Shown: one piece after another, positions 14,675 to 31,861 of the stretch
Layout of the letters: each line of letters begins with the position of its first letter
Numbering within the stretch: position 1 is the first letter of the stretch
Assembly: GCA_017450695.1 (NCBI GenBank)
Contig: JAFSTA010000124.1
Coordinates: 1-41,916, forward strand
DNA from: Kiritimatiellia bacterium
GTDB lineage: Bacteria > Verrucomicrobiota > Kiritimatiellia > RFP12 > UBA1067
Reading direction: 5' to 3'
Length of the DNA: 41,916 bases
Made by a program: the position numbers and the translations under genes
The notes under the pieces: model-generated
Seen by the model: the letters and a program-made list of their open reading frames with translations, nothing else
Database searches by the model: none
Told to the model about the DNA's origin: nothing

Positions 14675-16348
14675 TTACTCCTTTGCTGATTCCAACAGTT
14701 CTTTCGCGTGCTTCTCCACCACGCTGGTCAATCCCTTGCCTCCTAGCATCCGCGCGATCTCATCCACGCGGCTTTCCGGTTCCAGTTCGCGGATGTGCGT
14801 TTTGGTCCGTCCGGCCTCGACCGATTTCGACACCACGAAATGGTGCCGCCCGTACACGGCGCTCTGCGGCAGGTGCGTGATGCAAATCACCTGGTGCGTC
14901 TGCGCGACGCGGCGCAGTTTTTGCCCGACCGCGCGACCTACTTCGCCGCCGATGTTCGAGTCGATCTCGTCGAACACGAGTACGGGGATCGAGTCGTGGG
15001 TGGCGAGCACCGCCTTTGCCGCCAATGCGACACGAGCGATCTCGCCGCTGGAGGCGATCGCCTTCAACGGACGCATCGCCTCACCGGGGTTCGGCGCGAA
15101 ACCGAACGACACCTCGTCCATCCCCGTCGCCGCCGGTTCACACGCGGCCAGCGCGATGTCGAAGCCGCCTTGCAGGAAACCGAGGTCTCGCAGTTCCTTC
15201 GTGATCGCGCGCGCCAGCTTGCCCGCCGCCGCCGCGCGCTGGCGCGACAATGCACGTCCCTTTTCGCGCAACTCGCGTTCCACATCCGCGATCTCGCGCT
15301 GGAGACGTTCGACCTGTTCCGTGCGTGTGCTAAGGTCGTGCAGACGCTCTTCGTGCTTCTTCCAGGTTGCCGCCACATCCGCCAGTGTCGGGCCGTATTT
15401 CCGCTTCAGCTTTTCCACCAGCGTCAGGCGGTCGTCGAGCCGCTGGAGCAGTTCGGGGTCGGGATCCATCTCGCTCAACTTGTCGGTGATCGATCCCGCC
15501 AGTTCCTGCACCTGTACCGCGATACTCTGCGCGTCCTTCCGCCACTCGGCGGCGGCGGGGAGGATGCGCGCCAGTTCGGTCAGTTGCTGCTGCGCCGCGA
15601 CTAACTGGTTGAAGACGGAAGCCTCACTTTCGTTGATCAGTTCGGAGACCGACTGACCGATGGCGAGTATCTGTTCCGCGTTCGCCGCCTGGTCGTGGCG
15701 TTCCACCAGTTCCTCGCCGTCGGCCTCCGTCAGGTTTGCGCTCGCGATTTCATCCACCATGTACTGCAACCGATCGATCTCCATCGCGATGTCGGAACTG
15801 TCGCCCTGCAACGCCGCCAGTTTTGTCTTGCGTTCCTGAAGCTGCCGCCAGGTCTCACGGTAGGCGGAAAGCGCGGAAGCGCAGCAACCGTAGGCGTCGA
15901 GAAAATCCCGCTGGTAGTCGGAGGAGAGGAGCGACTGGTGATCGTACGCGCCGTGGATGTCAACCAGCAGTTCGCCCAGTTGCCGCAAGGTGGCGGCGGA
16001 AACCGAGGTGTCGTTGACGAAGCAACGGCCCGCGCCCGTCTGCGAGACGGAACGTCGTACCAGCAGGGAACCGTCTTCGCACGGAGGCAGGTCCAGTCCC
16101 GTCAGCAGCGCGTCAATCGGCGCGATGCGGCACTCCGGCAACTGGAAGACCGCTTCGACCGTGGCCTGTTTCTCTCCCTCGCGAATCACCGACTTGTCCG
16201 CGCGTCCGCCCAGCACAAGGTTCAACGCGCCCATCAATACGGATTTTCCGGATCCCGTTTCACCCGTGATGATGTTCAGCCCGTCGCCGAACAGCACTTC
16301 GACGGATTCAACGATCGCCAGATTTTTCACGCACAACCGACACAGCAT
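14675..16348 (-). CDS. recN: DNA repair protein RecN
   Basis: A 557-residue SMC-like ATPase that binds and tethers DNA ends during recombinational repair of double-strand breaks. The N-terminus MLCRLCVKNLAIVESVEVLF and Walker A GETGSGKS (29-36) are typical of RecN. The middle third (about 155-370) is coiled coil. The C-terminal half has the ABC signature SSGEIARVALA and Walker B VLVFDEID (D460-E461) followed by SNIGGEVGRAVG, diagnostic for RecN. It is close to the usual 550-560 residues. It is first in a two-gene unit with maa and has a TATAAT-type promoter about 115 bases upstream. It is intact. Confidence 0.95.
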   Translation of the reverse strand: MLCRLCVKNLAIVESVEVLFGDGLNIITGETGSGKSVLMGALNLVLGGRADKSVIREGEKQATVEAVFQLPECRIAPIDALLTGLDLPPCEDGSLLVRRSVSQTGAGRCFVNDTSVSAATLRQLGELLVDIHGAYDHQSLLSSDYQRDFLDAYGCCASALSAYRETWRQLQERKTKLAALQGDSSDIAMEIDRLQYMVDEIASANLTEADGEELVERHDQAANAEQILAIGQSVSELINESEASVFNQLVAAQQQLTELARILPAAAEWRKDAQSIAVQVQELAGSITDKLSEMDPDPELLQRLDDRLTLVEKLKRKYGPTLADVAATWKKHEERLHDLSTRTEQVERLQREIADVERELREKGRALSRQRAAAAGKLARAITKELRDLGFLQGGFDIALAACEPAATGMDEVSFGFAPNPGEAMRPLKAIASSGEIARVALAAKAVLATHDSIPVLVFDEIDSNIGGEVGRAVGQKLRRVAQTHQVICITHLPQSAVYGRHHFVVSKSVEAGRTKTHIRELEPESRVDEIARMLGGKGLTSVVEKHAKELLESAKE

Positions 16349-23210: not shown

Positions 23211-23394
23211 GCATCGCGCCCAAAGCTGACGAGTTAACAACCGAGATCGGATGAGGAATCAGAAGGACTGGAGTGCGACACAAACAAGGGGCAAAGAAGG
23301 TGTTTTTCGAAGATACGAATGATAGTCGTTTCAGTATTCGGTCGCTGGATAATGTCGAGTGTCTGGTTATGTGAAATTTGAAGTGGGGGCTAAA

Positions 23395-23499
23395 ATGGAA
23401 GGGCAATTAAATACCTTGGATCAGAACTCTGGTTCTTCCGGCGGGAGTGAAGAGGGAAACTGGGAAAGCATGACAACGATAGTGGCGAGGAGGTTGTAA
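23395..23499 (+). CDS. Possible 34-residue leader peptide
   Basis: From ATG 23395, preceded by a GGGGG stretch at 23384-23388, a 34-codon frame (MEGQLNTLDQNSGSSGGSEE...) ends in TAA at 23497-23499 that overlaps the next ATG as TAATG. A GTG at 23371 would add 8 residues. The AGGAGG used by the DUF1848 gene lies inside its last codons, so termination here could feed re-initiation downstream. The Ser/Gly-rich middle has no known match. It may be a real small protein or only a coupling leader. Confidence 0.35.
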   Translation: MEGQLNTLDQNSGSSGGSEEGNWESMTTIVARRL

Positions 23500-24524
23500 T
23501 GGCTGGATGGACTAAGGATGAGATTGTCATTGCCGACGGAACGAAAGTTCCGGCGCAGATGCCCGTAATCATCTCCGCGAGTCGATCAACTGACGTGCCT
23601 GCGTTCTATGCAGACTGGTTCATGGAACGGCTCAAGGCTGGTTACGTGAAGTGGTTCAATCCGTTCAACGGACTTCCGCTTTATGTTGGTTTCAAGGAGG
23701 CGCGTCTCATTGTGTTCTGGTCGAAGAATCCCGCACCGATGCTTGCGAATCTCGATGAACTTGACAAGCTCTTCCCAAACTATTATTTCCAGTACACTCT
23801 CAACGATTACTACGCAGAGAAGATCGAACCGCGCGTACCAGAGGTCGATAAACGTGTCGCGACATTCAAGGCACTGTCCGAGCGGCTCGGACGCGACCGT
23901 GTTGTTTGGCGCTTTGATCCGCTCATTCTGACGGATGCGCTCACCGTCTCAAGGCTACTTGAGAAAATTGAACGGCTGGGCGATCGCATCGCCCCCCTTA
24001 CGTCCCGTCTCGTGTTCAGTTTCATCGACATTGCTGCGTACAAGAAAGTAGCGGCGAACATGGCTCGCGGCGGCGTCCGGGCCCGTGAATTTTTGGCTGA
24101 TGAAATGGAGGAGATAGCTGCAGGTATCGGCAAGCTTGTGAAAGGGTGGGGGATATCTGCAGGGACGTGCGGCGAGATAAGGGATCTGGACAGATACGGC
24201 GTAGAGCACAACCGCTGCATCGATGACCGGTTGATAATGAAGTGCTTTTCGCATGACAGGGTGCTGATGGATTTCATCGGCGCGAAATGCGTCTCTGGCA
24301 AACCGCTCTTCGGTGAGCCGGATAAGTGGATTTTAGATGGGTACAGGAAAGACGGCGGACAGCGCAAGGCTTGCGGCTGCATCATGTCGAAGGACATTGG
24401 CGAGTACAATACGTGTCCGCATCTCTGCCACTACTGCTATGCCAACACGAACAGCGCAACGGCCTTGGCGAACAGGGATCGGCATCTCGCCTGTCCGCAC
24501 GCGGAGACGATAACGGGGAAGTGA
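23499..24524 (+). CDS. DUF1848 protein with radical-SAM-like cysteine motif
   Basis: A 341-residue protein matching DUF1848 throughout: VIISASRSTDVPAFYADWF (23-41) near the start, the VFWSKNPAPML segment, YYFQYTLNDY, and VVWRFDPLIL. The C-terminal end has CGC (292-294) and TCPHLCHYCYAN, giving C306-x3-C310-x2-C313, the spacing of radical-SAM iron-sulfur clusters, but placed at the C-terminus rather than the N-terminus. Family function is unproven; an Fe-S enzyme is plausible. AGGAGG (23488-23493) drives the ATG. It is the first large gene of a tight set with the HIRAN and helicase genes; the next ATG is 6 bases after its stop. Family call is firm, activity inferred. Confidence 0.87.
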   Translation: MAGWTKDEIVIADGTKVPAQMPVIISASRSTDVPAFYADWFMERLKAGYVKWFNPFNGLPLYVGFKEARLIVFWSKNPAPMLANLDELDKLFPNYYFQYTLNDYYAEKIEPRVPEVDKRVATFKALSERLGRDRVVWRFDPLILTDALTVSRLLEKIERLGDRIAPLTSRLVFSFIDIAAYKKVAANMARGGVRAREFLADEMEEIAAGIGKLVKGWGISAGTCGEIRDLDRYGVEHNRCIDDRLIMKCFSHDRVLMDFIGAKCVSGKPLFGEPDKWILDGYRKDGGQRKACGCIMSKDIGEYNTCPHLCHYCYANTNSATALANRDRHLACPHAETITGK

Positions 24525-24530
24525 GCCACC

Positions 24531-25058
24531 ATGGGTTTTAAGGATTTGTTCAAGAAAGTTGTAGGCGAGAGGCAACGCGAAGAGGTTGCTGCGACACCGG
24601 TTGCCCAGACCGAGGTCAAGTCGAGTGCCGTTGTTCAGGCGCATCCAGAACCTCAACGCGAACAGAATCCCCTTGTGCCAGAGACCGACCCTGTGAAACT
24701 GGCTCAAATGCGATTGGCCGCCCAAAGGCGTGTCAGAATCGTCGTGCGTGGGATAACAAAATACGGAAGAAGCGGATATTCGGGAATCTTCTCCCCCGGC
24801 GAGACGGTTTCTCTTGAAGGAGATCCTTCAAACCCATATGACGTGAACGCAGTGAAAGTGCTTCTCGCCGATGGGAGTATGCTTGGCTATGTCGCACGTG
24901 AAATGGCGGCATCCATTTCTCGAGAACTGGCAGACGGGTGGACGTTCAAGATCCGAATTTCCGAGGGGCCGTTCGTTGAAGACAAGTGGGGTCAGTGCGA
25001 ACTTGAGGTGATGGATAAGTGTCCTCCGGAACGAGGAGTGCAACATGGCGTTTCTTGA
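24531..25058 (+). CDS. HIRAN-domain protein
   Basis: A 175-residue protein. Residues 1-12 are an amphipathic helix (MGFKDLFKKVVG), 13-65 are a flexible Glu/Pro/Val-rich linker, and 70-160 are a HIRAN domain: VRGITKYGRSGYSGIF, then FSPGETVSLEGDPSNPYD, NAVKVLLADG and MLGYVAREMA. HIRAN domains (as in HLTF/Rad5) bind free 3' single-stranded DNA ends and steer helicases to stalled forks or damaged DNA. In bacteria they occur alone beside helicase or nuclease genes. Here the gene overlaps the helicase fusion by 14 bases, which strongly suggests a shared complex: HIRAN as DNA-end sensor, helicase as motor. The partnership is inference from position. Confidence 0.85.
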   Translation: MGFKDLFKKVVGERQREEVAATPVAQTEVKSSAVVQAHPEPQREQNPLVPETDPVKLAQMRLAAQRRVRIVVRGITKYGRSGYSGIFSPGETVSLEGDPSNPYDVNAVKVLLADGSMLGYVAREMAASISRELADGWTFKIRISEGPFVEDKWGQCELEVMDKCPPERGVQHGVS

Positions 25059-28000
25059 GAGAGTTGCACAGCTTCAAGCTCCGACCTTCACGGAGGTAGT
25101 TGGGGCGGCCGCAGCAGAGGTTCCGCGCCGAGAGTGGGCGGGAGCTTGGTCGGACTTGGAGCGTGGCCGCACGATTCTCGAAGACGAGGTCAGTCTCAAC
25201 AAATACCTCATAGCATATGGTCTCATGCATCGGGCAAAGCTCCTGCATATGCTCGATGCCATGCGAGGCGCATTCCGAAAACCGTCGGGACGGATGTCCA
25301 TTGTGGACTGGGGATGCAGCCAGGGGTTGGCATCGGCGGTCTTCATCGACTGGTTGCGTAGGAATCTCCCGGTAAAGAAGATTGTGTCGATTCGCCTTGT
25401 CGAGGTTTCCAATTCCGCCCGCCGCCGCGCGGTTCGGATTTTGAAGCGATACTCGGAAGTATACGAGAACGTCGAGGCGGACGTAGGCGAAATCCGCTGG
25501 GGTCGCGACGAGCCGATAACGTTTGGGAAACTGGATTTGCCCGCAGGAGTCCCGGTCGTACACCTCTACTCTAACATCTTGGATCTCGAGGCTGTGGATC
25601 GGCAGATGCTGGCTGATCTGTTCGAGCAATCGCGTCAGATGGCCGGAGTTCTTGCCCTATGCGTTAGCCCGAAATGCCCAGTGGCTGAACACATCTACGA
25701 TTTTTTCCGCCTTGTAGGCGGAGATGAGATGGTCGCATGTGATGTCGGCGAAATCAACTTCGAGAATCCCTACTCCCGCAAGTGCAGCTGTACCTACAAC
25801 GGTTGCGGATTCGTGATGCCAGCGCTTCGCGTTGCACCTGCGCAGGAGCCGATTGTACAGCCCATCATGGTCCATCCTGCCGCCATGCCGCCTGTGGAAG
25901 TCCTCGCCACCCCGGAGCCGGTACGCCCGCCAACCCCAGCCGCGCCGCTGCGTCCAGTTCAGCGGCGTGTCGTGAGGCGGAGAGGCGACAGAGGGCGAAC
26001 GTACGCGTTCGGGTTCGCCTCGACGCCGTTCCGCGATGCGATGCGGTCGCGTCCGGGCTGGTGGACGTTCAACCTCGCACTTACGCGGAACGGCATCCCG
26101 TGCGATGGCGGAATCGCTGGACTGAATCCTTTTCTCGCGGTTCTCAACAACATAATCGTCCGTGGCTGTGCCTCCTTCCCGCCGATCAAGGTCGAGGAAG
26201 CCCTCGCTAAAGCTCTCGACGTGATTCGCCGTGACGACGAATCGCTCGGAACGATAGACGTCAAGTGTCCTGCAGAAGTGACTGAAATCGTCGAGCGAAT
26301 CCTCAAGGTGTACGATCCCCGCGTCCAGTCTGAAGAGGAGGATGGCTCGTCCGACGAGGCTCTTGATGCGCGAGTGTTCATGCAGATGAGCGTTCCAATG
26401 ATGGTGGCCCGAGTTCAACATGCGGTGGTAAGAGCACTCATGACGGGGGCAGTTGACTGGTCTACTGGACGGGTGCTCATTCTGGCCTTGGAGCGGGACA
26501 TCCCGTGTGTCGCGCTTGCGTTGGAATCTCTCTCCGAACATTTCAATCACCTCTCTGAGCTGTGCGGGGCGGGCGCGGGCGCGGCGGCTCTTGACTACGA
26601 GGTCTCGATTGTCCGGGAAGTCGGCGATTTCGCAGATATCATCGGAAGCGCGGCGAACGGTGTCGAAGGCCGCTGCCGTCTCGTCGAGCGCGAGGAAGCA
26701 CTCAAGTCGGAATACGATATTTTCCTTGATGTATCCTTCTTCAACAATGAGGAGCAGACATCGTGGGAGGATGGCAAGGCCAGGGCGCAGGTCGCCGCAG
26801 AGCTGTTCGCCGTCAACGATCTGTCCAAGAGCAAGCCTGGGAACTTCCCACTATGCACAACGGAGAACATTGAGTATAAACCAGTCATCGAGTGGCTCAC
26901 ACCGGAGAAGTCGAGGCCTCTTCCCGCCATCAAACATTTGCGCTATTTCCTGCGCGAGATATTCCGCAAGAGCGACTTCCGCCCCGGACAGGTCCCGATC
27001 CTAGACCGTGCCATGCGCGGCCTCATGGTTATCGGTCTGCTTCCAACTGGAGGCGGCAAGTCGCTCACATACCAGTTGGCGGGCATGCTGCAGCCGGGGC
27101 TTGTCATGGTTGTCGCCCCCTTGCAGTCGCTCATGGTGGATCAGGTCAAGGGCCTGCAGCGGTTCGGTATCGATTCGTGCCAGTACCTCAACTCCTCACT
27201 CAGGGGGGCGGACCGCGATGCCGCCATGACGAAGGTTACCTCCGGGAACTCGAAGTTCGTCTTCATATCTCCGGAGCGTTTGTCGATCCCATCCTTCAGA
27301 TTCGCTTTGTCTGAAATGGCAGACAATGAGCTGTACTTCTCATATGGTGTGATAGACGAAGTGCATTGCGTATCCGAATGGGGTCATGACTTCCGTCCGA
27401 TGTATCTACACCTTGGCAGAAACATGCACGACTACGTCCTGATGAAGGACTCGTATGGTACGGAAGACAGACGTCTGATCCCGCTCCTCGGCCTCACGGC
27501 AACGGCATCGTTTGACGTGCTTGCGGACGTGCAGCGCGAGCTCGCTGGGCGAAATCGCGAAGAGCTTGCTCCGGACGCAATCGTGCGATACGAGAACACC
27601 AACCGCCTCGAACTCCAGTACCGGGTTGTCAGGGTTCCGAATCCCGGCGCAGGAAAGAAACGAGGGTGGGCGGACAGTTTCATGGTGCAGGTCAGATCGC
27701 TTGATTCCCAGATCGAATCACTCAAGGCGAAAGTGGCAAACGGGGATGTGTTGGCGAAAGCACAGTTGCAGGTCGCGGAGTCGCGGCGCAAGGAGATCGT
27801 CGAGGGAGACAAGAGTCAGAATGGTTGGAAGTGCCTCAAGGTCGCCCAGGGGGCGTATAGGAAATTTGTAAACGGGTTCAAGTTCGATGCCCTAAAATCC
27901 GAGATGGACAGCCTCACGTCCCTGTTCAGGAGACTCCTGACCGAGCAGAGCATAAAGCGAATAAAGCATGATTTCCTTGAGCGGGAGAACATTACGAGAG

Positions 28001-29646
28001 AGGACAACCCGGAAGTCTATGAAATTGTCGACAATTCAGATCTTCGGGTGAAATTCTCCGGCGAGGACTGGAAGACGCCCCGCCCCGACGGCTCCTATCG
28101 TGGTGGCGGACTCGTATTCTGTCCGATTAAGGGTTTCTCCGGGAGAACCCCGAGCCCGCTCTCTGTTGAAAACGTGTGGAAGAGGCTTGGCGGAAGTTCG
28201 CCCTCCAGCGCAAACGCAGTCAGGTGGTTTTCGGGAGAGATCAAGAACAACCCCCAAATGGAGTCCATACGCTGGCGTAACCAAGACGAATACATCGCCG
28301 AGCGTGCGGGGCTCATGGTAGCTACGAATGCGTTTGGCATGGGCATCGACAAACCCGACATTCGCTTCGTCTATGAATTAAGCCATCCAAAATCCCTTGA
28401 AGCCTTCGTCCAGGAGGCGGGGCGCGCCGGGCGTGACAGGAAGATGGCGCTGGCGACTCTGCTACTTTCCGAGTGCGACGATGTTGATCTTGACGTCGTG
28501 AAATGGTTTCACGACCAGAACTTCATCGGAGAGAAGCAGGAAGGCGAGGAACTCGAGAAGATTCTCAAGGATATCGACATGCGTCTTGAGGCCGAGGAGA
28601 CCGGCGAGGAGAGAATGGTAAAGGGATTCCTCGATTCGCTCCTCTTGACCGAACCTGGCACAGTCACCACCTATGTCTTGCCAGCATTATCAGATGGCAG
28701 CATGAAGGATATCCTCGAAAAGTCAATCTATCGGCTTTGCTGTATCGGTGTCATCGACGACGTTGAATGTCTCTATAGTGGGGACTCTCGCGGCGGCTCG
28801 ACACTTCGCCTACGAATGGTGCGCCGGACGGATGATGAGTACTACGACGTGCTCAAGAGCTTTCTCGCACGATATTTCACGGTGGAAAAATCCGAGGAGA
28901 AGGTTGCCGTGCTCAAGGCCGTGAAGATGGACGCGCCCGTCATCAAGAAGTGCCTTCTCTATCTCACTTCGTTTGTATACGAGAATGTCGAACGCAAGCG
29001 AGCCCGTGCCATGCTCGACATGCATGCCTTCTGCCTTCAGGGATGTCGGAAGCTCGCCGCGAACGAGACGTGGCTTGATGTCAACGAGGAGTTGAAGGAC
29101 TGGATATACTTCTATTTCAATTCCAAGTACGCCCGAACGGGAAACACGGTGAAGATCAACGGGAAAGACGTTCCATACTCCTTGGTCGACGACACGGATA
29201 GCGGTAAGAAGAAAGAATGGGATCGCAAACTGCTTGAAAAATACCTTGCGGTTGTAGAGGATCGCCTACTTGAGAACAACTCCCCGAAGGACAATGTGAA
29301 ACATCTTCAGGGGGCAGTTCGGCTCATTCGCCGTGCCGAGACAGGAGCAGCAAACCCGGTGCTGTCTCTGCTGAACGTGTTTTGCCTGTGCTTTCTCGGC
29401 TTCAGAGACAACGACCTGCTGTTTGACGAGTGCGTAAAGAGTCTCGCGCAAGATGGGTTCGGGCGGTTGCTGGTGACGGGACAGATGACGCCAGACGAAC
29501 TCTGGCAGAGTTTCAGCTGGTTTGTGGCGGAGGTGAAAAAACGTGCGCCTGACTGTCCAGTTGAAATCGTTGATGACATCGCTGGGTCGGCGCGGGTCGA
29601 AATGCACCTCGCTATGGTACGCGAGTTGCTTGCAAAACTTTCATAG
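25045..29646 (+). CDS. Methyltransferase-like domain fused to RecQ-type DNA helicase
   Basis: A 1533-residue fusion. Residues about 50-240 resemble a class I SAM methyltransferase (MSIVDWGCSQGLASAVF with D88-G90-C91-G94, acidic LVE after the next strand, and VVHLYSNILDLEA). Residues 260-330 are a Pro/Arg linker, 330-640 an unrecognised middle. The helicase follows: motif I TGGGKS (668-673), Ia APLQSLMVDQ, II DEVHCVSEWGHDF (771 on), III LTATA (817-821), V VATNAFGMGIDKPDI, VI QEAGRAGRD (1123-1131), all RecQ hallmarks. About 200 residues lie between motif III and GGGLVFCP (1020), against roughly 60 in ordinary RecQ; the extra part is charged and helical. The 370-residue C-terminus has no clear RQC or HRDC domain. 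GAGGAG (25033-25038) precedes the ATG. Likely an ATP-driven 3'-5' DNA translocase with modification or sensing activity. Confidence 0.87.
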   Translation: MAFLERVAQLQAPTFTEVVGAAAAEVPRREWAGAWSDLERGRTILEDEVSLNKYLIAYGLMHRAKLLHMLDAMRGAFRKPSGRMSIVDWGCSQGLASAVFIDWLRRNLPVKKIVSIRLVEVSNSARRRAVRILKRYSEVYENVEADVGEIRWGRDEPITFGKLDLPAGVPVVHLYSNILDLEAVDRQMLADLFEQSRQMAGVLALCVSPKCPVAEHIYDFFRLVGGDEMVACDVGEINFENPYSRKCSCTYNGCGFVMPALRVAPAQEPIVQPIMVHPAAMPPVEVLATPEPVRPPTPAAPLRPVQRRVVRRRGDRGRTYAFGFASTPFRDAMRSRPGWWTFNLALTRNGIPCDGGIAGLNPFLAVLNNIIVRGCASFPPIKVEEALAKALDVIRRDDESLGTIDVKCPAEVTEIVERILKVYDPRVQSEEEDGSSDEALDARVFMQMSVPMMVARVQHAVVRALMTGAVDWSTGRVLILALERDIPCVALALESLSEHFNHLSELCGAGAGAAALDYEVSIVREVGDFADIIGSAANGVEGRCRLVEREEALKSEYDIFLDVSFFNNEEQTSWEDGKARAQVAAELFAVNDLSKSKPGNFPLCTTENIEYKPVIEWLTPEKSRPLPAIKHLRYFLREIFRKSDFRPGQVPILDRAMRGLMVIGLLPTGGGKSLTYQLAGMLQPGLVMVVAPLQSLMVDQVKGLQRFGIDSCQYLNSSLRGADRDAAMTKVTSGNSKFVFISPERLSIPSFRFALSEMADNELYFSYGVIDEVHCVSEWGHDFRPMYLHLGRNMHDYVLMKDSYGTEDRRLIPLLGLTATASFDVLADVQRELAGRNREELAPDAIVRYENTNRLELQYRVVRVPNPGAGKKRGWADSFMVQVRSLDSQIESLKAKVANGDVLAKAQLQVAESRRKEIVEGDKSQNGWKCLKVAQGAYRKFVNGFKFDALKSEMDSLTSLFRRLLTEQSIKRIKHDFLERENITREDNPEVYEIVDNSDLRVKFSGEDWKTPRPDGSYRGGGLVFCPIKGFSGRTPSPLSVENVWKRLGGSSPSSANAVRWFSGEIKNNPQMESIRWRNQDEYIAERAGLMVATNAFGMGIDKPDIRFVYELSHPKSLEAFVQEAGRAGRDRKMALATLLLSECDDVDLDVVKWFHDQNFIGEKQEGEELEKILKDIDMRLEAEETGEERMVKGFLDSLLLTEPGTVTTYVLPALSDGSMKDILEKSIYRLCCIGVIDDVECLYSGDSRGGSTLRLRMVRRTDDEYYDVLKSFLARYFTVEKSEEKVAVLKAVKMDAPVIKKCLLYLTSFVYENVERKRARAMLDMHAFCLQGCRKLAANETWLDVNEELKDWIYFYFNSKYARTGNTVKINGKDVPYSLVDDTDSGKKKEWDRKLLEKYLAVVEDRLLENNSPKDNVKHLQGAVRLIRRAETGAANPVLSLLNVFCLCFLGFRDNDLLFDECVKSLAQDGFGRLLVTGQMTPDELWQSFSWFVAEVKKRAPDCPVEIVDDIAGSARVEMHLAMVRELLAKLS

Positions 29647-29657
29647 GAGAAAAATCC

Positions 29658-30239
29658 ATGAGCGAAAAGAAAATCGATGAAAAACTGGCAGAACTCTGTG
29701 CCGCGATCAAAGAGTTCGCGAGCCTTACCGACAGGACGAAGGCCGTTGAGAACCTCGCCAAGAAGATGGCAAGCGTTGGCGAGGAGCATCTGTCCGAGGC
29801 AGAACGTCGTGTGAAGGACATGTGTGCCACTTTGGTGGACTCCCTGAAAAGCGCGAAAACTGCACCAGAGAAGCTCGAGGCGGCTTCGAAGAAGCTGAAC
29901 GGAAAGGTCGACGAGTACGTTGACGAAATTGACGCGAAGCTGGCTGACATGGAGGGTCGCGTGTCAACATGCGTCCTCAAGCTCGGGCAGGTTGTAAAGG
30001 CAATGGAAAAAGGTGCTGCGGCGGCAGCCAAGTCAATTGAAGAGAAGATAGCCGAGATGGAGACTGCATCTTCGATTGATGGTTTTGAAGAATTTAAGAA
30101 AGATGTCGGAATCCGGCTTTCGGCGTTGGAAAAGAAGACCGAGGCCGTGAGTGGAAAGCTCGCAGCGGTGGACGGCACACTCAAGGAGATTAGGGAAATG
30201 ATAGCGAAGATCCCAACAAAGAGAAGCATATTCGGATAA
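29658..30239 (+). CDS. Coiled-coil protein of unknown function
   Basis: A 193-residue, highly charged protein made almost entirely of heptad repeats (IDEKLAELCAAIKEF; KLEAASKKLNGKVDEYVDEI; KLAAVDGTLKEIREMIAKI), with alanine/lysine-rich middle and basic tail KIPTKRSIFG. No catalytic motif, signal peptide or membrane segment. GGAG lies 8-11 bases before the ATG, which is 11 bases after the helicase stop, so it belongs to the same transcript. It could be a scaffold or structural partner of the helicase fusion; that is position-based inference. A phage-type or SMC-accessory coiled coil is another possibility. Confidence 0.75.
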   Translation: MSEKKIDEKLAELCAAIKEFASLTDRTKAVENLAKKMASVGEEHLSEAERRVKDMCATLVDSLKSAKTAPEKLEAASKKLNGKVDEYVDEIDAKLADMEGRVSTCVLKLGQVVKAMEKGAAAAAKSIEEKIAEMETASSIDGFEEFKKDVGIRLSALEKKTEAVSGKLAAVDGTLKEIREMIAKIPTKRSIFG

Positions 30240-30281
30240 TATCCAGCCAACGGCCCCTACGTAATTTTATACTTGCTGCAA

Positions 30282-31861
30282 ATGAGACCGATAGCCACAG
30301 ACACTGCGGATTTCCCGTCCTTGCGGAAGAGGGGGTGCATCTACGTTGACAAGACGGGGTTCATCCACCGCCTCGTCACGGATCCCAACACGAGGCTTTT
30401 CTTCCTCTCGCGGCCCCGAAGGTTCGGCAAGTCGCTGACAGTTTCCGCCCTGAAGGCGCTCTTCCAGGGGCGGCGCGAACTGTTCGGCGGGCTGTACATC
30501 GACGGGACCGACTGGAAGTGGGAGGCGTATCCCGTGATCCACTTCGAGTTCAACGACCTGGAGACTACGAGTGTGGAGACGTTCGAGAAATCGCTTGCCA
30601 CGCACGTGCGCGACCGCCTCGAAAAGGCTGGGTTCTCCTACGACGTGGCGGAGTCCCCGGCGGGTAACTTCGGCAGCGCCATCACATCGCTCTCAGCGGC
30701 GAACGGCGGCAGGGGCGTGGTGATCCTCATCGACGAGTACGACGCGCCGGTGGGGCACTGCCTCGACGATGTGGGGAAAGCCGAGGCGGTGCGTGACAGA
30801 CTCTCTGCGGTCTATTCCCAGATGAAGAACCGCACGGGTGAATCCGCTTCCTGCTGATGACCGGCGTCTCGAAGTTCACGCGCCTTTCTGTTTTCTCCGC
30901 GCTGAACAACATCGTTGATGTCTCGCAACGCAGGGAGTACGCGACGATGTTCGGCTACACGGAGGAGGAGCTGGAGGCGAACATCGAGGAGCATTTGCGT
31001 GAACATGCGGGGATCATGGGGAAAACTTACGGGGACTACCGCGCCGAGATGAGACGTTGGTACAACGGATTTCGGTTTTCGCCGGACTGCGAAAAAACCG
31101 TTTACAACCCGATCTCCGTCGCTCTGACGCTCTCGGAGAAACGTGACGGTTTCTCCGCCACGTGGGCGACGACGGGACGGCCGTCGATGCTGATGAACTA
31201 CCTGAAGCGCGAGGATGTGCTGCGCATTGACCCGGATGCGGTGCAGCGCGTGAGGTCGGCGGCTTTCGACGTGGCGGAATTGCGCGATCTGCAGCCGATC
31301 CCCATGCTTTACCAGTCCGGTTATCTTACGATAAGAGATTACAAGTGTGGCATGTTCACACTGGGCGTTCCGGACGAGGAGGTGCGGCAGGACTTGAATC
31401 TGCTGATGACCGGCGTGGCTGCTGACAAGAGCACTTACTGGGCATCGCGACTCGGCGACCATCTCCTCTGTGCCGAATGGGATGACTTTTTCGAAGGACT
31501 CCAGTCGCTCTACGCAGGGATGGTCTATGGATCGACGGAGCGGCGCGTCCACGAGAACTCATACGGGATTTGTCTCTCGTTTCTCCTCGCGAGTTGCGGA
31601 TTCCGCTTTACGATGGAGGCGGTGCTGTCAAACGGCCGCGCCGACATTGTGGCGGAGCATCCGGCGGAGGTGTGCGTCTTCGAGCTGAAGGTGGACGAGT
31701 CCGTCGATAAGGCTTTCGCGCAGATACGCGAAAAAGGTTACGCCGAGCCGTACCTAGCCGACGACCGCCCCATCTGGCTCATCGGACTTTCATTTGACTC
31801 GAAGACCCGCCACCTCTTTGATTTTGCTGCTGAACGATACGGTGGCGTAACAGAAACTTGA
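30282..31861 (+). pseudogene. AAA-ATPase-like / PD-(D/E)XK nuclease fusion, frameshifted
   Basis: The first part, from ATG 30282, has the family start TDTADFPSLRKRGCIYVDKT, Walker A RPRRFGKS (44-51) and Walker B VVILIDEYDAPV, then goes out of frame and stops at 30857. From there another frame continues the family perfectly (IRFLLMTGVSKFTRLSVFSA) to 31861, ending in a PD-(D/E)XK nuclease core, GRADIVAEHPAEVCVFELKV. One missing A near 30840 (GGTGAATCC for GGTGAAATCC) explains everything. It matches Pfam-type AAA-ATPase_like plus PDDEXK_9, a family of many-copy genes in gut bacteria with unknown role. TATACT (30268-30273) sits only 8 bases before the ATG, so a leaderless transcript is possible. 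A sequencing error cannot be excluded. Confidence 0.8.

Follow-up and report, generated by a model that had tools for sequence, protein, structure and literature searches.

A modular gene set pairing a methyltransferase-like/RecQ fusion with DUF1848 in a Kiritimatiellia bacterium: a probable mobile conflict system

We analyzed a stretch of 41,916 nucleotides from a Kiritimatiellia bacterium (hereafter the window; contig JAFSTA010000124.1, contig 17 among the 287 of the 5.03-Mb assembly GCA_017450695.1), in which genes for a DUF1848 protein, a HIRAN protein, a fusion of a methyltransferase-like (MTL) domain to a RecQ-type helicase, and a coiled-coil protein follow each other closely (Table 1). 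The reading we favor, and consider probable, is that the window carries a copy of a conflict system that is modular and moves horizontally, most likely directed against phages or plasmids. Comparison of loci shows a recurrent core formed by the predicted methyltransferase and a nearby putative redox enzyme, i.e., either DUF1848 or an AlkB-type 2-oxoglutarate (2OG)-Fe(II) dioxygenase, and this core is linked, by fusion or by the order of the genes, with a nucleic-acid motor or another module. The coupled modules are a RecQ-type helicase plus a coiled-coil protein in the window, and UvrD-like helicases, UvrD-like helicases with an ADP-ribosyltransferase/glycohydrolase, or repeat domains elsewhere.

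Genome contigs were scanned with a five-row MTL alignment, and the best 80 of 87 relatives were kept as MTL loci; their organism titles name Bacteroidota, Bacillota, Actinomycetota, Pseudomonadota, Campylobacterota, Cyanobacteria, Ignavibacteria and Kiritimatiellae. DUF1848 was present in 57/80 of these loci and AlkB in 14/80, with at least one of them in 68/80 (DUF1848 only in 54, AlkB only in 11, both in three, and neither in 12). In 38 loci, no more than 60 nt separated the end of the DUF1848 gene from the MTL downstream of it, and AlkB lay within 60 nt in 7. In a small control, consisting of 27 short loci (86 kb in total) around weak methyltransferase matches, DUF1848 or AlkB was found in 0/27. 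Since AlkB and DUF1848 occupy the same place, the comparison suggests that their roles are related, one being perhaps oxygen-dependent and the other not; because three loci hold both, they are not strict alternatives. As for the coiled-coil gene, 17 of the 19 RecQ-type MTL genes encoding more than 1300 aa have room downstream, and in 16 of these 17 a same-strand ORF (open reading frame) for a coiled-coil-like protein of 187-343 aa was observed at -38 to +22 nt downstream. Here position outweighs similarity as evidence, because five of the 16 ORFs had themselves seeded the profile and ten have scores below 50 bits. The window protein itself gave only sub-cut-off matches to coiled-coil-type models (Pfam, PADLOC).

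The presence of a HIRAN protein, as announced in an earlier note made from the sequence of the window, was confirmed (PF08797, 46.4 bits against a cut-off of 24.7), and HIRAN is described as a DNA 3′-end binding domain in PMC9503650. Inside the module, it was found only in the window and in the relative UBA3783, and at different positions, i.e., before the fusion in the window and after the coiled-coil gene in UBA3783. Among 34 searched genomes with MTL loci, nine had a HIRAN match (seven over the cut-off) with a two-row profile that is weak for distant copies, and only UBA3783 had it in the module, so that HIRAN was ruled out as a core part. It is a lineage-specific local add-on to a set with three core members. 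The earlier note had counted HIRAN among the members and had looked to co-occurrence of all four families in unrelated genomes as support for a system: a recurrent set does exist in unrelated genomes, partly beside defence genes, but it consists of DUF1848 (or AlkB), the MTL-helicase and the coiled-coil protein, and the four families do not recur as a set.

The giant methyltransferase-like/RecQ fusion predicted in that note was borne out along its 1533 residues. Eighteen of 20 long aligned relatives span the whole, or nearly the whole, protein (one at 79% identity and 17 at 30-36%), the remaining two being a split gene and a contig-cut gene. The methyltransferase-like N-terminus had no Pfam match at E 1e-3, and a solved-structure sequence search with residues 1-625 gave nothing at E 1. 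Residues 1-640 were folded from a 20-row alignment with moderate confidence (mean pLDDT, predicted local distance difference test, 70.5), and the modelled N-terminal 260 residues matched class I methyltransferases (Foldseek 2.8e-7). The best structural row has the Rossmann methyltransferase fold (Z 18.4, root-mean-square deviation (rmsd) 3.1, 226 residues aligned), and the eight top entries are mitochondrial small-subunit chains (Z 15.5-18.4; next entry 14.7). METTL17/Rsm22 is named in the title of one of them, and the other seven are presumably METTL17/Rsm22 too. These matches are distant (10-12% identity). In 90 copies of the domain, conservation peaks at DWGCGQG, LIEPS and HLFSNILD; a motif-I-like pattern, i.e., the glycine-rich S-adenosylmethionine (SAM) motif, is present in 81/90 and an HxFSNxLD-like pattern in 86/90. 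The MTL model thus matches a METTL17/Rsm22-like class I SAM methyltransferase, and methyltransferase activity is predicted. Pfam recognizes DEAD (9.2e-16) and Helicase_C (2.5e-9) further on, and the helicase core has Walker A, DEVH, TAT and motif-VI-like QEAGRAGRD motifs and matches the NCBIfam recQ profile at 1.3e-69. A housekeeping RecQ orthologue was rejected, the score being 235.2 bits against the recQ equivalog cut-off of 640.2. The fusion's middle part (about residues 360-620) is covered by the 640-residue model only. In 11 of the 20 aligned relatives it carries an extra ~120 residues that the window fusion lacks, and a sub-cut-off match (0.0032) to the MTES_1575 nuclease was seen in the middle region of the relative in locus L056. 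A DEAD/DEAH helicase of a Salinibacter ruber plasmid (L044, 11089-15030) shares this region (32% identity over residues 438-611).

We predict that DUF1848 is a radical-SAM enzyme. The C-x3-C-x2-C motif to which the earlier note had drawn attention is real: Cys 306, 310 and 313 are invariant in 40/40 aligned homologues (45 of 51 rows were kept as non-redundant, and 40 stand in the final alignment), as are four more cysteines (residues 224, 240, 292 and 294), which makes seven in all. With the confident AlphaFold model (pLDDT 93.1), Foldseek gave only weak barrel matches, and VIA-align returned radical-SAM enzymes as entries 1-13 (Z 8.2-9.6, rmsd 3.5-6.0, 168-216 residues aligned), namely Elp3 seven times, biotin synthase, pyruvate formate-lyase activase twice, a sactipeptide enzyme twice, and Cfr. 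The margin is modest, the best non-radical-SAM barrel being at Z 7.9, and these rows are 8-12% identical to DUF1848. The motif does not stand near the barrel's N-terminal end; it is C-terminal and followed by a helix (residues 319-331). In several of the aligned radical-SAM enzymes, as we understand their structures, the cluster motif precedes the start of the aligned part. Because the aligned radical-SAM parts start past the motif, while CX3CX2C of DUF1848 sits C-terminally, the segment order in the model indicates that DUF1848 is probably circularly permuted. The gathering score of PF04055 (29.5 bits) was not reached by the DUF1848 protein of locus L059 (12.4 bits, and 14.5 after permutation), and the window protein gave no PF04055 match, either native or permuted. 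The Cys motif matched an NCBIfam radical-SAM family weakly (0.0041, far under the cut-off), and a solved-structure sequence search gave nothing at E 1. Pfam itself remarks that the C-terminal Cys cluster of DUF1848 resembles radical SAM.

DUF1848 genes were also observed in other settings. A second one in the genome under study (L151, contig C127:10623-11513) stands beside a gene for a 1427-aa NERD plus AAA_11/AAA_12 protein, which along most of its length shares 32% identity with a 1501-aa protein encoded between two MTL genes of L010. L152 (489-6362) has UvrD-like, ADP-ribosyltransferase-type and divergent methyltransferase-like proteins plus DUF1848, a variant with no recognizable MTL, and a Roseburia plasmid (L049, 6343-8963) has a protein-ADP-ribose hydrolase, Sir2 and DUF1848 in a row. 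In a human-gut contig (L047, 5340-21438), DUF1848 accompanies a different methyltransferase-like gene and a UvrD-like gene, with a PDC-M01A/B pair 3.4 kb further, and the region lies between two ORFs judged by eye to be integrase-like.

The sister types show which other modules MTL is joined to. MTL is fused to UvrD-like helicases (confirmed with Pfam for L046), and it is also found with LRR_5 (L091) or Fib_succ_major (L072) domains or, as judged by eye, with ankyrin- and Sel1-like repeats. Alternatively, it is a protein of ~490-640 aa, upstream of which stand a UvrD-like gene and an L127-type ORF. Pfam recognizes both 2CompART and 2CompARG in the protein next to MTL in L127 (the only one compared with Pfam), and 20 similar ORFs were found by profile. 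In L114, L121, L126 and L129, a short MTL forms a pair with AlkB.

The surroundings of the MTL loci point towards defence. Three copies of the module sit between PglX and PglZ, namely those of Algibacter lectus (L106), Lewinella cohaerens (L108) and Salegentibacter tibetensis (L116), and BrxL follows the module-bearing bacteriophage exclusion (BREX) genes in L108 and L116. In Acinetobacter sp. (L126, 1225-5604), the order is Cas_NE0113 gene, MTL, AlkB, vWA and PP2C, and we take Cas_NE0113 to be a CARF-type family; the closest PADLOC model to the AlkB protein of L077 is CARF_2OG (1.4e-49). On the Moraxella osloensis plasmid pSKB0120-4 (L168), an annotated viperin is found ~3 kb upstream of the MTL and AlkB genes, both of which are annotated as hypothetical. 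An IMG/VR viral contig with a phage terminase gene (L164, 5986-11996) carries MTL-RecQ and the coiled-coil gene, with no DUF1848 within the 12.6 kb fetched. A sample of 101 neighbor proteins from 64/66 loci (excluding six loci that were duplicates or nearly so; no locus gave more than two proteins of 230-1260 aa, and the longest were removed) was matched to families, of which the best 25 of 168 and the best 25 of 120 were considered; among the matches listed there were five AriA-type, three reverse-transcriptase (Pfam) and three relaxase proteins. An enrichment of defence genes is suggested rather than measured, because this sample has no matched control. Two further observations concern single loci: after the coiled-coil gene of L059, a 100-aa ORF (15471-15773) resembles the start of PglZ by eye, perhaps a BREX remnant, and in the viral contig L167 (1353-5950) a reverse transcriptase lies upstream of DUF1848 and MTL.

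The distribution is consistent with horizontal movement of the MTL system. In its own class, residues 1-625 of the fusion had a match at E 1e-3 in 6/288 genomes (that of the window included), of which two, this genome and one other, matched over the full query. A second search, with the five-row MTL alignment, matched 29/387 genomes, 26 of them weakly (6e-7 or worse), which were taken as generic methyltransferases and left uncounted; the 27 control loci come from this search. In the fusion tree, the Bacteroidota are split over more than one clade. Near-identical fusions occur in Bacteroides gallinarum and Phocaeicola massiliensis, where the adjoining upstream genes also agree in size. A tblastn search of plasmids with residues 1-625 gave one partial match. 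In a genome of the same genus as that of the window (G238, L012, 465-2300), an intact DUF1848 gene is followed by a decayed fusion start, apparently a lost copy of the system.

Within the window, the four genes and the possible leader ORF lie where the earlier note had placed them. After the TAATG overlap, the junctions are +6 nt between DUF1848 and HIRAN, -14 nt between HIRAN and the fusion, and +11 nt between the fusion and the coiled-coil gene. It is this spacing that points to a single transcript of the four genes, because the promoter- and terminator-like sites at the locus were not above those of shuffled sequences. On the 3′ side of the coiled-coil gene (30273-31861), an AAA-ATPase_like ORF is directly followed by a PDDEXK_9 ORF in another frame, as if a single gene had been split, in agreement with the frameshifted flanking genes that had been noted; the candidate non-coding RNA proposed for the flanks fared less well, the Rfam search of the window, this candidate included, giving no match at the gathering score. 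Another ORF (940-2061) has an ADP-ribosylglycohydrolase domain with DUF1653 at the C-terminus.

Table 1. Positions of the gene set and its protein regions in the window
Feature	Coordinates	Strand	Basis or remarks
Leader ORF, 34 codons	23395..23499	+	Sequence; TAA overlaps the DUF1848 ATG (TAATG); putative coding
DUF1848 gene, 341 aa	23499..24524	+	Pfam PF08902, 4.5e-90
C-x3-C-x2-C motif, DUF1848 residues 306-313	24414..24437	+	Kept in 40/40 aligned homologues
HIRAN gene, 175 aa	24531..25058	+	Pfam PF08797, 3.6e-12; domain about 24780-24965
MTL-RecQ fusion gene, 1533 aa	25045..29646	+	ORF and full-length relatives
MTL domain	25045..25839	+	Predicted METTL17/Rsm22-like class I SAM methyltransferase; DWGCSQG at residue 88, HLYSNILD at residue 173
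Middle region of the fusion	26122..26904	+	Alignments; conserved
RecQ-type helicase core	26929..28536	+	GGGKS 669, DEVHC 771, LTATA 817, QEAGRAGRD 1123
C-terminal region of the fusion	28537..29643	+	Conserved; no Pfam match at E 1e-3
Coiled-coil gene, 193 aa	29658..30239	+	Weak coiled-coil-type model matches only

We infer the anti-invader role of the set from context and mobility, together with a chemistry of modification or de-modification, in either direction. The RecQ motor and its coiled-coil partner, with HIRAN as 3′-end binder in the lineage of the window, would engage foreign or stalled nucleic acid and expose single strands, on which MTL and the redox enzyme would add, remove or convert a base modification, and this modification would mark or inactivate the invader. 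The substrate is likely nucleic acid, DNA or RNA, by analogy, because helicases and AlkB enzymes act on it. A more specific version, which we offer tentatively and regard as doubtful, is a new class of immunity built on a writer and an eraser: the METTL17-like methyltransferase and an interchangeable eraser, i.e., a permuted radical-SAM enzyme or AlkB, would act on strands presented by the motor, so that modifying the invader would constitute the attack, with the redox enzyme as a safety or activation switch, and DUF1848 would replace the oxygen-dependent AlkB, e.g., in anaerobes. If the conflict-system reading is right, orphan families (DUF1848, the METTL17-like domain, the RecQ-type fusion and the coiled-coil partner) are joined in one testable system that is spread over many phyla and several types of element. 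DUF1848 would thereby gain a candidate role, radical-SAM/AlkB base chemistry would join the bacterial defence repertoire, and the co-occurrence pattern tells which genes belong together for cloning.

Several observations weigh against the conflict-system reading. The seeds of the MTL scan were all linked to DUF1848, two of the loci retrieved (L050 and L124) were themselves seeds, and several are near-duplicates of others, which leaves fewer than 80 independent cases. Twelve of them lack both partners; the space upstream of MTL is below 1 kb in six of these, 3-5 kb in two and more than 9 kb in four, one of which (L074) has an MTL ORF of only 89 residues. A broadened MTL profile matches 16 ORFs in the 27 control loci, and the RecQ-fusion profile four, as is usual for generic methyltransferases; the border of the MTL family therefore rests on score. 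DUF1848 is found in 18/146 genomes of the class, and it is not exclusive to the MTL system, since 13 further DUF1848 loci fetched from the class gave an MTL match in 0/13; the ORF caller, which favors long ORFs, missed the DUF1848 gene in 4/13 of these loci and also the coiled-coil gene of the window. The earlier note would have dropped its idea if the four genes failed to co-occur outside close relatives, or if helicase orthologues sat alone in housekeeping contexts; the fusion does keep partners outside close relatives, while the DUF1848 genes of the class were mostly observed with no MTL. Restriction- or BREX-type Pfam families were found in 0/10 other window ORFs scanned (Pfam only), and among the 101 neighbor proteins known defence families are scattered among many housekeeping ones. 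Finally, misbinned contigs of metagenome-assembled genomes and paralogues could contribute to the pattern, and the several changes seen in the tree are no proof of transfer.

A mobile cassette for nucleic-acid repair, which we consider rather unlikely, would protect the carrier itself: AlkB and a radical-SAM enzyme resembling spore photoproduct lyase would directly repair damaged bases once the helicase has opened the strands, with MTL as a sensor or scaffold. The AlkB family membership, the helicase partners, the 3′-end binding described for HIRAN in PMC9503650, and the weak, far sub-cut-off NCBIfam match of the DUF1848 Cys motif (0.0041) would all suit such a role. However, the module copies within BREX operons, the Cas_NE0113 gene that adjoins one copy, the ADP-ribosyltransferase/glycohydrolase partner in a sister type, and the SAM-site motif kept in 81/90 MTL copies argue against it. 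An RNA-directed system, to which we give a low probability, would have MTL and DUF1848 (Elp3/Cfr-like in fold) add modifications to rRNA or tRNA, or take them off, so that translation is shut down or rescued during infection. METTL17/Rsm22, Elp3 and Cfr work on RNA or ribosomes, and the nearest folds are METTL17/Rsm22 for MTL and Elp3 for DUF1848, with Cfr also among the matches; yet these matches are distant (10-12% for METTL17/Rsm22 and 8-12% for radical-SAM), a shared fold shows no function, and the RecQ and HIRAN partners point to DNA. That the genes are chance neighbors or a housekeeping replication-repair operon is very improbable: the remaining window genes are mostly ordinary (ten other ORFs scanned), but the linkage is repeated in distant phyla and yet rare in close relatives, and the counts of DUF1848 (57/80 MTL loci against 0/27 control loci) contradict it.

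The conflict-system reading was finally set against known systems. The earlier note had been unable to match the set to a named one, and neither did PADLOC 2.0.0, NCBIfam 20.0 or Pfam as searched; for the fusion, Dpd, DISARM, BREX, PsyrT and the NCBIfam models were rejected, giving helicase-only or sub-cut-off matches. The MTL system was not recognized in the open-licence literature of PubMed Central, which was the scope of the search, with bioRxiv and most subscription literature outside it; no paper on DUF1848 was found there, nor the paper of origin of the Pfam names 2CompART/2CompARG, and the accessible parts of PMC9503650, PMC10853773, PMC7824862 and PMC11090510 hold no description of the MTL system. 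The gene set is apparently unnamed so far, and its ADP-ribosyl branch may already be described in the literature. BREX resembles it as a defence operon with a DNA methyltransferase, and three MTL modules lie inside BREX operons, but the matches listed for the window's six module-region genes include no PglX, PglZ or BrxL, and MTL is METTL17/Rsm22-like by its model. In Dpd, DpdF (a RecQ-like helicase) is the best PADLOC match of the window helicase core (257.9 bits); however, only the helicase parts match, the NCBIfam DpdF score is 133.6 bits against a cut-off of 550, and no DpdA match was listed among the six window genes scanned. DISARM, with its DrmA helicase, also pairs a helicase with a methyltransferase, but the DrmA matches are confined to the Helicase_C region (best 1.2e-5), and no DISARM methyltransferase match was listed among the six genes. 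The window DUF1848 matches the PADLOC model RTasDUF1848 (5.1e-38) of DUF1848 proteins associated with defence-associated reverse transcriptases (DRT), whereas no reverse transcriptase was found in the six module-region genes and the partner here is MTL-RecQ. The 2CompART and 2CompARG domains (PF22546/PF22545) occur together in the L127 protein beside a sister-type MTL, but not in the window module. DarTG, i.e., reversible ADP-ribosylation of DNA, offers by analogy a writer/eraser pair acting on nucleic acid, with enzymes that differ from those of the MTL set. The MTL set would belong with the modular helicase-modification defence cassettes.

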